From positions 1 through 32,080 of the forward strand of contig NZ_FQWV01000015.1 in the NCBI RefSeq assembly GCF_900129775.1: 32,080 nt of DNA, written 5' to 3'. The notes beneath the pieces are model-generated. The model was not told the origin of the DNA. It saw nothing but the letters and a program-made list of their open reading frames with translations, and searched no databases. Within the stretch, counting starts at the first letter, position 1; every line of letters starts with the position of its first letter. Positions 18,717 through 24,173 of this stretch are shown piece by piece. This DNA comes from Halobaculum gomorrense. Lineage in GTDB: Archaea > Halobacteriota > Halobacteria > Halobacteriales > Haloferacaceae. The position numbers and the translations under genes were made by a program.

Positions 18717-19268
18717 TCACAGCCGGCGGCGCATCCGGACGTGCTCGATGCCGTCCTCGTCGAAGGCGCCGACCGCGTCGTCGACGGCGTAGCCCAACCG
18801 CTCGTAGAAGCCAGCCGCGTGGGTCTGCGCGTGGAGCACCGCCTCCGGGAGGCCGCGCTCGCGGGCGCGGGACTCGACGGCACGCATCGCGCGCGCGCCC
18901 CAGCCCCCTCCCCGGCGGTGGCGGTCGACGGCGACCCGCTCGACCTTCGCGAGGCGGTCGGTCCCCGGCGCGAGGGCGCCGTACTCGCCGGCGTCGACCG
19001 CGCGGAGCCGGGCGACCGCGACGGCGTCCCCGTCGCGGTCCCGCACGAGGACGTGGTCGACGGCCGAGTCCAGCGGCTCCTCGTCGTGTTCGTCGAGTTC
19101 CAGTCCCTCGGGCACGCCCTGCTCGTCGACGAACACCGCCATCCGGAGGTCGACGGCGGCGTCCCAGTCGGCCGGCGTCGCGACGAGCGTCGCCCTCCAG
19201 TCGGCGTCGCCCGGGGCGAAATCGGCGCCGGCTGGGGTGTCGTCGGGAAGAGCGTCGTGCTCCGTCAT
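18717..19268 (-). CDS. GNAT family N-acetyltransferase
   Basis: The product has 183 residues. The GNAT fold is recognisable from RMAVFVDEQGVPEGLELDEHD (about 42-62), the acetyl-CoA-binding motif A VERVAVDRHRRGGGWGARAM (109-128), and motif B HAQTHAAGFYERLGY (146-160). It resembles ElaA-like enzymes, which acetylate small amines or protein N-termini; the acceptor is unknown. The first 25 residues are a poorly conserved acidic extension. Its ATG lies two bases after the pelota stop, so the two are almost certainly cotranscribed and coupled. That pairing could mean a role in translation or ribosome rescue, but it may be incidental. Confidence 0.9.
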   Translation of the reverse strand: MTEHDALPDDTPAGADFAPGDADWRATLVATPADWDAAVDLRMAVFVDEQGVPEGLELDEHDEEPLDSAVDHVLVRDRDGDAVAVARLRAVDAGEYGALAPGTDRLAKVERVAVDRHRRGGGWGARAMRAVESRARERGLPEAVLHAQTHAAGFYERLGYAVDDAVGAFDEDGIEHVRMRRRL

Positions 19269-19270
19269 CG

Positions 19271-20338
19271 TTACTGGAGCCGGTACCGCAGGAGTGCGGC
19301 GACGCCGCCGAGGTTCCGGAGCTGCTGGCCCGGCGCGAACTCCGAGGAGAACACGACCACGTCGCCGCCCTTCTGCTCGGCGGTCTCGACGAGGTCGTTC
19401 ACGTCGACATCCCAGTCTCCCTCACCCTGTCGCTCGGCCCGCAGGCGGTCATCGACGATGAGCAGCGTCTCGATCGCGCCGAACTCGGCGGCCTCCATCG
19501 TCTCGTTCACGCCGTAAGTCGCCTTGGCTCCCTCGGCGATGCGCTCGGTGAGTTCGTCGATCAGCTCCGCCTCCCGAGCGATGCGCGTCTCGCGTTGCAC
19601 CTCGTCGACGGCGCCGCGCTTGAGCACTTCGTGGACGCCACGGTCGCCGGCGGCGGAGGTGTTCACGACGGAGATCCGGTCGCTCAGGTCGCGGTACTCC
19701 TCGTCGATGTAGTCGTTGGCGTCGTTCTTGGTGAACCCCGGCCCGGCGAGGATGACCGCCTCGGGGTTGAGGTGCGACAGCGCCGACCCCAGCTCGTCGA
19801 ACAGCTCGTCGCGGGGGCGGGCGTACTCTCCCTTCCCGGTCGGCTTGGTGAAGCTGGCGTACTCCTCGGTGCCGTACTGCTGGACGGTGTGGATGTACGC
19901 CGCGCCCTCCTCGACGGTCGCGATCGCCACGTCGGGCGCGCCGGTGGCCTCCTCGGCCTCCTCGATGCGCTCGATCTGGTCGGGTTTGAAGCGCTTCTCG
20001 ACGGTGAGCTCCGACCGCTCCTCGACGTTGATCGTGTGGTGGTGACCGATCTCGTCCTCGCGTGAACACCCGACAATGAGGCCGCCGACCCGCAGGCGGT
20101 TGGCGAAGCGGGCGAACTCCACGTCCTCGACCTCGATGGTGACGCGCATGTGCTCGCGCTCACCGCCCGTGTCCCGGAGTTGGTCGTCGTCGCGGGTGAC
20201 CCGTCGGGTCGTGTCGGCCTCGACGAGGTCGCCCGGTTCGAGGACGTGCGAGAGGTGCCACAGGTCGTCGGTGGTCTCTGGGGTGACCGTCAGGCGCTCG
20301 CGCCCCTCCTCGCCGCGGCCGCGCGAGTCGATTCGCAT
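19271..20338 (-). CDS. pelA: pelota (aPelota/Dom34), ribosome rescue factor
   Basis: The product has 355 residues, the expected length. The N-terminal Sm-like domain ([39 protein letters not shown]) is followed by a central eRF1_2-like domain ([26 protein letters not shown]) and a C-terminal eRF1_3-like domain ([41 protein letters not shown]). Like Dom34 it lacks the GGQ motif of release factors. With aABCE1 it splits ribosomes stalled on mRNA. The ATG at 20338 lies about 25 nt after a CTTTGTAC box on the minus strand, so it may have its own promoter in addition to any read-through from the DUF4013 genes upstream. Confidence 0.95.
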
Positions 20339-20426
20339 GGCCGGTGATGCGGCGGGCGCGTACAAAGGCCCTCCGAGACGACGGGGGGACCGAGGCCACC
20401 GGCTCGCGTGTCGCGAGCACGGCGCC

Positions 20427-21197
20427 TCACAGGGTGTCGGTTCGTGTCGGGTCCGACGCATCCGGGTCTTCGGCAGCGTCGGCGTCCTCCGACGCATCCG
20501 GGTCTTCGGCAGCGTCGGTGTTCCCGTGCGGGCCGGGATCTTCGGCCACGGTGCCCACACCCGTCGCCTCCGCGACCCCGCGGCCGAAGCAGTAGTAGGC
20601 GACGACCTGTCCGTAGAACAGCGCGGGGATCCCGATCAGGATCAGCGCGAACGGGCTCGCAACGCTCCCGATCACGCCCGCGAGGACGACGCCGAAGAGG
20701 ACGCCTACAAGATACCGGCCGGAGAGGGCGGCCTCGCGCAGCGCCTTGGCGTCGAACGCGGCACCCACCTCGCCCGCGAGCGCGAAGTTCGTCATCGCTG
20801 CCGGCAGGACGTACGCGACGGCGACTGACAGCAGCGTCGCCAACAGGAGCAGCAGAAGGCTAACGGCTCCGAACGCCGCGATCCCCGCGTCGCTGCCCGT
20901 GGCGCCCCCGACGAGGAGGGCGACAACCGCCGCGACAACCGGGACCGCGATCACGACCCCGTAGACCGCCTGCACGACGACGAGCTTCAGCCCGTCGACG
21001 AACAGCTCACCCCAGTCGGTGAACGACGGAGCGGCCCGCTCGCCGGTCGCCGCCGAGCGGAGCACCCTGAGGAGGTACCCCTGAAGGACGAACGCCGGGA
21101 GGACGAACACGCTGGCGAGGATCAGCGCCCCGCCGACGATCAGCGTGGCGACGCGGTCGTCGGTTCGAAGCGGGTACGCCAAGGCGTCCTCCAACAT
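20427..21197 (-). CDS. DUF4013 membrane protein (second of two)
   Basis: The product has 256 residues. Five or six membrane helices (about 22-45, 72-100, 108-140 and 160-195) carry the DUF4013 pattern [14 protein letters not shown] at the start and [17 protein letters not shown] in the middle. The function is unknown; the family is found in archaea and bacteria, sometimes as tandem paralogues. The C-terminal 45 residues are acidic and repetitive ([10 protein letters not shown] units), encoded by a 36-bp-period repeat. The ATG at 21197 begins the conserved domain. It lies 25 nt after the stop of the first DUF4013 gene and 88 nt before pelota, so the membrane genes sit between aRqcH and pelota. 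Confidence 0.85.
20452..20518. repeat. 36-bp-period tandem repeat in the DUF4013 tail
   Basis: Two 31-bp blocks beginning tccgacgcatccgggtcttc at 20452 and 20488 are identical. The period is a multiple of three, so copy-number change keeps the frame. Confidence 0.8.
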
Positions 21198-21222
21198 ACT
21201 CGGTCGGTCGACAGCGCGGGGG

Positions 21223-21969
21223 TTAATCGTTTTCACCGAACCTCAGCCGAGTCCCGATCCCTCGGCTCCACGCCGCCGCGGCGGCGACCTCCAGGTAGAA
21301 CAGCCCGAAGAAGCCGAGCAGGCGGATCGGACGGGCGTCGGCCCCCGCCAGCGACGCGCCGAACCCGAGCAGCACCGCCCCCACGGTCCACGCGTAGAAG
21401 TACCGCCCGGACGCAACGAGCCGGCGGAGCCGCTCGGTGGCGACCGCGGCGCCGACGCGCTCGTGGAGCGTTCCCTCCGGGTCGCTCCGGGCGTACCCGG
21501 CGAGGATCGCGGGCAGCGGATACGCCAGCGCGACCGCGAGCAGCAGGCTCACTGTCCCGCCGACGAGCGTCACGCCGTACCCGAGCGGCGTCGTCGGATC
21601 GGTCGGGCCGCCCCCTCCCGCGCCCGACGCGGCGCCGCCGACCGTGACGACGAGCACGCCGACCGGAACGAGCAGGACCGCGACCGCGACCGCGCCGGCG
21701 ACGACCCCGTCGCGAAGCAGCGCGAACGGCCGTCGAAACGAGGGGAGCGAGCTCGGGTCGTCGGCGTCGCCGGCGGCGCCGAGCACCCGGACGTGGTACC
21801 CGACGACGAGCGCGGCCGCAAGCGGCGCGAGCAGCGAGAGCGGCCACAGCGGCGCGACGAGCGCAATGAGGAGGTGGATCCCACCCCCGGTCGCCAGCGC
21901 CTCCGCGGTCGCGCCGCGGTCGTCCACGGCCCCGAGCGGGTACCGCAGCGCCTCCCGGATCACGCTCAC
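21223..21969 (-). CDS. DUF4013 membrane protein (first of two)
   Basis: The product has 248 residues from a GTG at 21969 that overlaps the aRqcH stop codon as GTGA, which decides the start and implies translational coupling. The protein begins with IREALRYPLGAVDDRG and has about five hydrophobic helices (ALVAPLWPLSLLAPLAAALV, VAGAVAVAVLLVPVGVLVV and others), with RRLVASGRYFYAWTVGAVLL matching the same DUF4013 segment as the next gene. It and the following gene are diverged paralogues, probably from an old tandem duplication. Their function is unknown, but coupling to aRqcH and proximity to pelota make a link between membrane and stalled-ribosome handling conceivable. Confidence 0.85.
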   Translation of the reverse strand: MSVIREALRYPLGAVDDRGATAEALATGGGIHLLIALVAPLWPLSLLAPLAAALVVGYHVRVLGAAGDADDPSSLPSFRRPFALLRDGVVAGAVAVAVLLVPVGVLVVTVGGAASGAGGGGPTDPTTPLGYGVTLVGGTVSLLLAVALAYPLPAILAGYARSDPEGTLHERVGAAVATERLRRLVASGRYFYAWTVGAVLLGFGASLAGADARPIRLLGFFGLFYLEVAAAAAWSRGIGTRLRFGEND

Positions 21970-24077
21970 TCCCCGTGCACGTCGCTTTCGCCCGGCGGGA
22001 GGAACTCCTGGATCCGGTCGGCGGAGGCGACCTTGCGGACGAACCCCTGGTCGGCGAACCGCTCTTTGAGCTGGCGATAGCACTTCATCGCCGCGTCGTT
22101 CTGGGCGTATCGCCCGGGCGTGAGCCGGATCGTCGTCTCCGCGCGCGCCTCGATTGCGCTCGGGGGACCGCCGATCACCCGCGTCTCGGGCTCGACCTGG
22201 ACGCCGACGGCGACCTCGCAGGGCACGTCGCGGTAGTAGTCGCGCTCGCCGCGGATGACGAACCCGCCCTTCTCGATGTACTCGCCCGACTCGGGCGTCT
22301 TCGACACCTGATCGGGGGTGACGACGTACGCGTCGCCGGCGCCACGCCCGTCTTTCCACACCGAGGAGTGGGAGACGGCAAACTGCGCGGCCTCCCGGCG
22401 CGACTGCTCGGGGATCGTCACGTCGCGGGCGGCCTCGGAGGGGTCGGTCGCCTTGATGATCGTCACCGGGCCGCCGTGAGCCTGCGCGTGACAGAACAGG
22501 TCCCGGCCCTCCATGTAGTTCTTCACGAGCTCCTCGTTTTGGTCGGCGTTGCGCCCCCCGATGACGAGGAAGCCGTCGCTGGTCTCGAACCAGCGGAAGC
22601 GGTCGTACCAGTGGTCCTGCTTCCTGACGGGGATAGACGGTCGCGAGAGCCAGTCGACGGCTTCCCGATCGTCGTCCTCGTCGCCGTCGCTGGGTTCGTC
22701 GTCGTCCCCGTGGTCGTCATCGGCCTGCTCCCACTCCTCTCTACGCCGCTTGACAGCTTCCAGTTCCTCGCGCGTGTTCTCGATCGCCGCGAGCGCGCCC
22801 TTCTTCTTCTCTTCGATCCGCTTGGCCTCCGTGTACAGCCGGTCGGCGTTCTTCTCCGGTCCGGTGCCGGCGTCGAGGGTGACGACCGTGCCGTCGAGGT
22901 CGACGTCGACGGTCCCCTCGGAGCCGTCGACGCCGCGGACGGCCTCCGCCTCGGGGATGCCGCGGTCGGCCCCCTCGAGGAACGTCTCGTCGATCTCCTC
23001 CCAGCCTCGGCCCTCCTCACGGGCGGCCTGGATCGTCGAGAGCACGTCCGCAACGAGGTCGTAGTGGGCGTACACGGCCTCGGCCTTCTCGCGCTCGGCG
23101 GCCGCGCGCTCGTCGAAGTCGTCGATCGCGCCCTCCTGCTGGTCGATGATGCGCTGCTTTTTCGCGATCTCCGCCTCGAAGTCAGGTGCGTCGTCGACCT
23201 CCTCGTCCTCGGTGAGGTCGAGCCGGGTGAAGTACGCGTCCAAGGCGGCGTTGAAGTCGTCGTACGCCTCCGCCTCCATCCCCTCGCGCTCCGTCAGCGG
23301 GAACGGCGTCACGTCGACGACGGCGTCGTCCTCCAAGTAGACCCTGGGGTCCAGATCCCCGGCGTCGAGGCGCTCGCCCATCCGGGTGAGTGCGTCGTAG
23401 ATCGCGCGGTACTGCGCCTCGCCGGCGTCGGCGATGTCGAGCGTCTTCTCGATGCCCGCGCGGGTGCAGAACTCCTCGGCGTACAGCCCGCCCATGTTGA
23501 GTTGGGTCGCGAGCGTCCGGACCACGTCGGTGTCCGACTCCTCCATCCGCGCTTCGAACACCTCGTAGCGCACACCGAAGGGATCGATCCGCGACTGCGG
23601 ATACTCGTACTGGCTGCCCGGCGCGACGGTGCGCGACTTGAGCCGGACCGTCTCCAGGCTGCGCTGCACCTCGCCGGTTTCGTCGAGGACAGCGACGTTG
23701 CCCTCGCCGAACAGCTCGGCGACGACGCGCGTGTTCTCGTCGGGACGGTCGAAGTCAAACGAGAGGATGCGGTCGAACTCGTACTGCTCCACGTCGGCGA
23801 GTTCGCCGCCCGCGAGCCGCGAGCGGAGCGTCTTCGCGAACTCCGGGGGACGGCCCGGCGCGTCGGGGACGTGCGCGGGGTCGGCGACGTGACACCGCTT
23901 CACGTCGCCCGTCTCGACGAGGAGTTCGACCCGCCCGCGGTCGTAGTCACGGAGCTTGAATCGGACGAGGTCGTCGCCGTAGAGGTAGACCTTGTCCACC
24001 TTCGCGCCCTCGTACCGGGAGAGCTCCCCGGCAAGGGCGGCGAGGTCGACGCTCGTCATCTCGGTTTTCGGGTCCAT
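21966..24077 (-). CDS. rqcH: archaeal RqcH / NEMF / Tae2-type ribosome quality control protein (NFACT)
   Basis: The product has 703 residues. The NFACT-N domain comes first (MTSVDLAALAGELSRYEGAK, then D102-R103 in QYEFDRILSF, the Asp-Arg pair needed for tRNA use in bacterial RqcH and yeast Rqc2). A helix-hairpin-helix/middle region and a long coiled coil follow (about 310-380 and 440-490, including an Asp/Glu run DDDHGDDDEPSDGDEDDD). The NFACT-R (DUF814) domain is at about 505-640, with DRFRWFETSDGFLVIGGRNADQNE and FCHAQAHGGPV. The family binds large ribosomal subunits with a stuck nascent chain and, in bacteria, adds alanine tails; archaeal members are thought to act likewise. The ATG at 24077 begins the conserved sequence. 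Confidence 0.95.
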   Translation of the reverse strand: MDPKTEMTSVDLAALAGELSRYEGAKVDKVYLYGDDLVRFKLRDYDRGRVELLVETGDVKRCHVADPAHVPDAPGRPPEFAKTLRSRLAGGELADVEQYEFDRILSFDFDRPDENTRVVAELFGEGNVAVLDETGEVQRSLETVRLKSRTVAPGSQYEYPQSRIDPFGVRYEVFEARMEESDTDVVRTLATQLNMGGLYAEEFCTRAGIEKTLDIADAGEAQYRAIYDALTRMGERLDAGDLDPRVYLEDDAVVDVTPFPLTEREGMEAEAYDDFNAALDAYFTRLDLTEDEEVDDAPDFEAEIAKKQRIIDQQEGAIDDFDERAAAEREKAEAVYAHYDLVADVLSTIQAAREEGRGWEEIDETFLEGADRGIPEAEAVRGVDGSEGTVDVDLDGTVVTLDAGTGPEKNADRLYTEAKRIEEKKKGALAAIENTREELEAVKRRREEWEQADDDHGDDDEPSDGDEDDDREAVDWLSRPSIPVRKQDHWYDRFRWFETSDGFLVIGGRNADQNEELVKNYMEGRDLFCHAQAHGGPVTIIKATDPSEAARDVTIPEQSRREAAQFAVSHSSVWKDGRGAGDAYVVTPDQVSKTPESGEYIEKGGFVIRGERDYYRDVPCEVAVGVQVEPETRVIGGPPSAIEARAETTIRLTPGRYAQNDAAMKCYRQLKERFADQGFVRKVASADRIQEFLPPGESDVHGE

Positions 24078-24173
24078 CTGATCGCCCGTGACTACTTGCG
24101 GCGGGTGTTTGGGCGTTGCGGGACGCGGTGCCGCGCGGGCGGGAGCCACCGAGCTCGGCTGTCGGTGCGACGC

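Follow-up and report, generated by a model that had tools for sequence, protein, structure and literature searches.

In haloarchaea, a conserved gene array places one to four paralogous genes for multi-span membrane proteins of the family DUF4013 between or beside those for the ribosome-rescue factors RqcH and pelota. The array was examined starting from a stretch of 32,080 nucleotides of Halobaculum gomorrense (contig NZ_FQWV01000015.1, positions 1 to 32,080; hereafter the window), haloarchaeal DNA of about 70% GC in which RqcH, two DUF4013 genes (no. 1 and no. 2), pelota and a GNAT acetyltransferase gene follow one another on the minus strand. This five-gene order, given in a preliminary description made from the sequence alone, was borne out by the coordinates and by profile scores (NF041120, PF13197, TIGR00111 and PF00583). 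Pelota splits stalled ribosomes together with ABCE1, and pelota and then RqcH act in succession on stalled ribosomes; members of the RqcH/NEMF family bind the 50S-peptidyl-tRNA complex and add C-terminal tails. The arrangement gives a hint, but no proof, that ribosome rescue has a membrane side, and a rescue role for DUF4013 at the membrane was judged about as likely as that of a long-kept passenger.

Conservation was surveyed in 60 genomes from 28 genera of the window's family (coded f1; other families also carry f-numbers, and the loci compared carry L-numbers), with profile matches accepted at E values up to 0.001. A simple gene caller overlooked some DUF4013 genes, and the family counts were taken instead from the hidden Markov model matches listed, copy numbers being lower bounds. 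DUF4013 was present in 59 of the 60 genomes and RqcH and pelota in all 60 (pelota over its cut-off in 59); all three were found in the control genome, Haloferax volcanii. A contiguous, same-strand run of RqcH, one to four DUF4013 genes and pelota was observed in 35 of the genomes, representing most of the 28 genera, and among the matches listed it held two copies in 20 genomes, one in 8, three in 6 and four in 1. RqcH and pelota stood together without DUF4013, among the matches listed, in 7/60. Where the two anchor genes were apart, DUF4013 was with pelota in 7 genomes, with RqcH in 3 and between them in 1, and in 7/60 no DUF4013 linkage was seen among the matches listed; part of these separations are contig breaks in draft assemblies. 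Linked genes always shared one strand. A DUF4013 gene lay no more than 8 kb from RqcH or pelota in 46/60 genomes (random placement gives about 2.4% per genome), cases that are not independent, common descent leaving far fewer separate events.

Linked DUF4013 genes were also found in six more haloarchaeal families: f2 (3 of 9 genomes), f3 (6 of 10), f23, f24, f25 and f4, the last with one linked copy on the far side of pelota. The order RqcH-DUF4013-pelota, in which the preliminary description had seen a possible tie between membrane proteins and ribosome rescue, is thus kept well past near relatives. As a control for synteny decay, genes within 5 kb of the locus were compared between families. 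Neighbours coding for ornithine cyclodeaminase (OCD) and a major facilitator superfamily (MFS) protein, and those coded c8 and c10, were found in this neighbourhood in f1 only; DUF4013 was found at the locus in seven haloarchaeal families, with 68/68 copies sharing the strand of the anchor genes. RqcH and pelota are immediate neighbours in methanogen-type families, often with a 4-bp overlap, and DUF4013, if present, lies elsewhere. The RqcH-pelota pairing is therefore read as old in the phylum and the intervening DUF4013 as a haloarchaeal addition.

A tree of 145 DUF4013 domains, built by a quick method and with many weak branches, set most methanogen copies apart from haloarchaeal ones. Copies at the locus fell into four clades: A, beside RqcH; C, long-tailed; D, with window no. 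1; and B, beside pelota, with window no. 2. At locus L011 the four occur together, as RqcH-A-C-D-B-pelota. Clades B (19 rows) and C (15 rows) held linked copies only, unlinked ones falling in A and around D, and the linked DUF4013 of other families placed near A, C and D. The tree fits an old DUF4013 array with differential loss, and repeated recruitment to the locus would be an alternative. In Halobaculum litoreum, DUF4013 no. 1 (L005:12101-12826) is apparently frameshifted, with matches in two frames, by decay or sequencing error. Unlinked copies of methanogen-type genomes (L082, L083 and L137-L140) lie downstream of a purH-like gene, so named from its sequence.

In many clade-C proteins the C-terminus is an acidic tail of low complexity that carries VQxGRxV and a near-terminal FxWG (L007, L013, L017, L018, L022-L025, L034 and L038). 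VQxGRxV was found in 12 of 30 DUF4013 tails longer than 50 residues (0.03 expected from shuffled tails) and FxWG, counted as FxW, in 10 of the 30 (0.63 expected). Neither occurred among unlinked DUF4013 (0/71), and of 863 other called genes one had VQxGRxV. An AlphaFold2 model of window no. 2, made from an alignment of six sequences, was all-helical (pLDDT, the predicted local distance difference test, 80.3; pTM, the predicted template modelling score, 0.73), with residues 216-256 forming a disordered tail of pLDDT below 50. Lysine and arginine averaged 0.17 and 0.14 per sequence in loops 97-106 and 182-190, and 2.65, 3.04 and 1.17 in loops 40-64 and 136-162 and at the end of the last helix; because of this distribution and the positive-inside rule, the tail is predicted to be cytosolic. 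An insertase of Oxa1/EMC3/DUF106 type was considered for DUF4013 and rejected, there being no sequence or fold match in Pfam, PDB sequence and Foldseek searches.

It is plausible that archaeal ribosome rescue has a membrane arm, which might work as follows. A ribosome stalling during membrane-protein insertion would leave a 50S-nascent chain complex plugged in the membrane. The larger loops and acidic C-terminal tail of DUF4013, on the cytosolic face according to topology predicted from sequence, could then hold or recruit RqcH or pelota at the membrane, and the two short motifs in the tails of one paralogue clade would resemble docking sites. DUF4013 might alternatively help to clear the half-inserted chain. 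Contact with the ribosome, RqcH or pelota, and an effect on rescue, are what we infer from the gene arrangement.

Promoter-like elements were compared across the locus. Upstream of haloarchaeal RqcH (59 loci) and pelota (63 loci), AT content peaked at -39/-38, -28 to -24 and -10 from the start codon, which is the pattern of the transcription factor B recognition element (BRE), TATA box and -10 element of leaderless haloarchaeal genes. Leaderless transcripts make up 72% of the protein-coding ones in Hfx. volcanii, for which the motifs CGAAA, TTWT and WW have been proposed (PMC4983044). A clear BRE/TATA/-10 signature at leaderless distance before RqcH and pelota was noted in the window and in loci L007-L072. 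AT-rich boxes at suitable distance preceded 17/17 clade-B, 10/12 clade-C and 2/13 clade-A DUF4013 genes; since so few clade-A genes have one, these are probably co-transcribed with RqcH. The preliminary description had set the genes in one minus-strand block. One shared transcript is not supported, given the promoter-like boxes before RqcH and pelota across haloarchaea; in the window, those before DUF4013 no. 2 and pelota speak against a single RqcH-DUF4013-DUF4013-pelota-GNAT operon, which was dropped as the default because boxes precede RqcH, pelota and the DUF4013 genes of clades B and C. The likely transcription units in the window are RqcH with DUF4013 no. 1, DUF4013 no. 2, and pelota with GNAT, with read-through possible.

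The gene junctions were examined as well. The window sequence does allow the GTGA start-stop overlap proposed for RqcH and DUF4013 no. 1, with an alternative GTG at 21969 overlapping the RqcH stop, and the tight coupling is real. Relatives do not preserve the overlap exactly: comparison with them places the conserved start at the second GTG (21963), 2 bp past the RqcH stop in the window and 2-3 bp past it in relatives, and loci L004 and L009 have TAA as the stop, so that GTGA itself is not a conserved feature. DUF4013 no. 1 and no. 2 are separated by 25 bp, and no. 2 and pelota by 88 bp holding a promoter-like box.

Several observations favour a membrane-side role of DUF4013 in ribosome rescue: the runs conserved in 35 family genomes and the linked cases of six further families; the persistence of DUF4013 mostly beside pelota or RqcH once these two are apart; its retention in other families, where OCD, MFS, c8 and c10 are gone; the four paralogue clades at the locus, of which B and C include no unlinked copy; the tail motifs confined to linked copies; the predicted cytosolic tail; and the EMC6_arch-ABCE1 gene pair described below. 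With function taken from genomic context, this reading was considered tenable, if somewhat short of an even chance. Weighing against it are that genomic context is its whole support; that the f4 locus is mostly without DUF4013; and that some near-complete haloarchaeal genomes with RqcH-pelota have no DUF4013, several haloarchaea lacking it altogether, which rules it out as a core rescue factor. Further, unlinked copies stand in varied contexts, among which a translation theme was sought and not found; neither window protein carries VQxGRxV or FxWG; no solved or viral structure resembled the predicted fold in the Pfam, PDB sequence and Foldseek searches; and most genes at the locus have promoter-like boxes of their own. 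An opposite-strand metallo-beta-lactamase (MBL) gene is likewise kept beside pelota in six families other than f1, so synteny decay is slow here and long retention alone is weak evidence of a functional link. A rival reading is that a DUF4013 gene came to lie between the two anchor genes early in the haloarchaea, gave rise to local duplicates and has been retained by slow decay of gene order while doing an unrelated membrane job. The breadth of the family and its scattered unlinked members, the promoter-like boxes of clades B and C, the long retention of unrelated neighbours (OCD, MFS and MBL) and the RqcH-pelota pairs with no intervening DUF4013 in methanogens and some haloarchaea all suit such a passenger, which was likewise rated not quite an even prospect. 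It accounts less readily for the usual persistence of DUF4013 beside one anchor gene after their separation, for its presence in families whose other neighbours have changed, and for two paralogue clades (B and C) never unlinked in the sample and tail motifs confined to linked copies.

Shared regulation would be a further explanation, DUF4013 proteins being envelope- or osmotic-stress factors that the cell requires in the same conditions as rescue and having no contact with the pathway. The tight coupling of the first DUF4013 gene to RqcH and the scarcity of promoter boxes in clade A, with its probable co-transcription, agree with this, but the separate promoter-like boxes of pelota and of clades B and C speak against one regulatory unit, and the explanation was thought improbable. 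That the GNAT protein belongs to the rescue system, acetylating a rescue factor or ribosomal protein, is very improbable indeed. Its gene does begin 2 bp after the pelota stop, as first described and as the window coordinates confirm, is probably on one transcript with pelota, and holds the same place in the nearest relatives. The same GNAT gene was found behind pelota only in L004, L005, L006, L009 and L040, all from the genus or close relatives, however, and in other genera related GNAT genes are divergent and upstream of RqcH. A tie between an acetyltransferase and ribosome rescue, as first suggested, is thus not supported, and GNAT was rejected as a conserved part of the locus.

A parallel that does not depend on DUF4013 was found in the neighbours of RqcH-pelota. 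In the five methanogen-type families sampled first, these neighbours were EMC6_arch (PF19094) and the ATPase ABCE1/RLI, which splits ribosomes together with pelota. EMC6_arch was present in 70/70 genomes of a phylum-wide draw (Halobacteriota), and at 39 of 46 loci examined it was followed on the same strand by ABCE1, with a gap of -20 to +60 bp in 30; part of the remaining loci are truncated by contig ends. The pair occurs in the window's own genome with a gap of 0 (L147:7130-9298), and in many methanogen-type loci it divergently adjoins RqcH-pelota. The loci concerned, besides L147, are L148-L186, L073 and L078-L081. The identity of EMC6_arch is that of its PF19094 match and rests on the name given by Pfam; it is a putative rather than a confirmed EMC6, the profile having matched no solved EMC6 chain. 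As an independent parallel, the EMC6_arch-ABCE1 pair gives the best ground for treating a membrane side of archaeal rescue as a serious possibility. A dedicated membrane arm, in which EMC6_arch would be made with ABCE1 across Halobacteriota and haloarchaeal DUF4013 tails would dock rescue factors on membrane-stalled ribosomes, is a bolder proposal and was considered rather unlikely.

The features of the window are listed in Table 1. RqcH has NFACT-N, middle and NFACT-R domains, and pelota has three eRF1-like domains, an equivalog score over the cut-off and no GGQ motif in its translation. GNAT passes a general Pfam cut-off, the other four genes exceeding specific curated ones; the interval first described for the block (19268-24077) does not include the GNAT body (18717-19268). 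Three DUF4013 matches were found in the whole genome, two of them at this locus. The closest named relatives of the window RqcH are from Halobaculum, and a single scan of genome contigs gave only three close relatives.

Table 1. Genes and putative promoter elements of the RqcH-pelota locus in the window (all on the minus strand)
Feature	Position	Strand	Evidence and remarks
aRqcH (archaeal NEMF/Rqc2/RqcH homologue), 703 aa	21966..24077	-	NF041120 819.6 bits, cut-off 400; PF05833, PF05670
DUF4013 no. 1, a membrane protein of paralogue clade D	21223..21963	-	PF13197 52.5 bits, gathering cut-off 26.9; GTG start set by relatives
DUF4013 no. 2, a 256-aa membrane protein of paralogue clade B with an acidic C-terminal tail predicted to be disordered	20427..21197	-	PF13197 107 bits
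Pelota (aPelota/Dom34)	19271..20338	-	TIGR00111 287.8 bits, cut-off 177.65; PF03463, PF03464, PF03465
GNAT acetyltransferase, lineage-specific neighbour	18717..19268	-	PF00583 48.2 bits
AT-rich, promoter-like box gaaaacgattaac at about -37 to -25 relative to the ATG of DUF4013 no. 2	21222..21234	-	Predicted from sequence; AT-rich box in 17/17 clade-B genes
Promoter-like TATA box (cctttgta) before the pelota ATG, with leaderless spacing	20361..20368	-	Predicted; conserved in genus and relatives
Conserved element upstream of RqcH, atypical in Halobaculum compared with the haloarchaeal BRE/TATA region	24099..24115	-	Sequence comparison

Two other neighbours were noted. The tRNA-modification gene Elp3 adjoins RqcH-pelota on the same strand in 31/31 cases from seven haloarchaeal families (L048:11074-12771 and 30 other loci). 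A protein of about 148 aa that has several hydrophobic segments and matches nothing in Pfam is encoded on the same strand after pelota at 14 family loci (L041:9958-10404 and 13 others).

In the literature searched, of which coverage was partial so that absence is weak evidence, no membrane component with DUF4013 was named in ribosome rescue, nothing relevant was found on DUF4013 or archaeal RqcH (the lone DUF4013 match being a cotton genome-wide association study), and nothing was found on EMC6, ABCE1 and archaea together. No description of how archaea handle ribosomes stalled during membrane-protein insertion was met in that literature. If the membrane-side reading is true, DUF4013, a family without assigned function, would gain a role, and archaea would gain a membrane-linked quality-control pathway comparable to ribosome-associated quality control (RQC) at the eukaryotic endoplasmic reticulum.

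Among known systems, eukaryotic EMC3-EMC6 is a minimal insertase (PMC8887752), and the likeness to it and to the Oxa1-superfamily insertases lies in a membrane protein gene beside a ribosome-recycling gene (EMC6_arch before ABCE1); DUF4013 differs in having no sequence or fold match to that group or to any solved structure. Within DUF4013 (PF13197), both window proteins exceed the gathering score, and most linked copies belong to a few paralogue clades, one of them with a motif-bearing tail. A further correspondence is with archaeal and eukaryotic ribosome rescue and RQC (Pelota/Dom34 with ABCE1; RqcH/NEMF/Rqc2), of which both flanking genes of the window are clear members.

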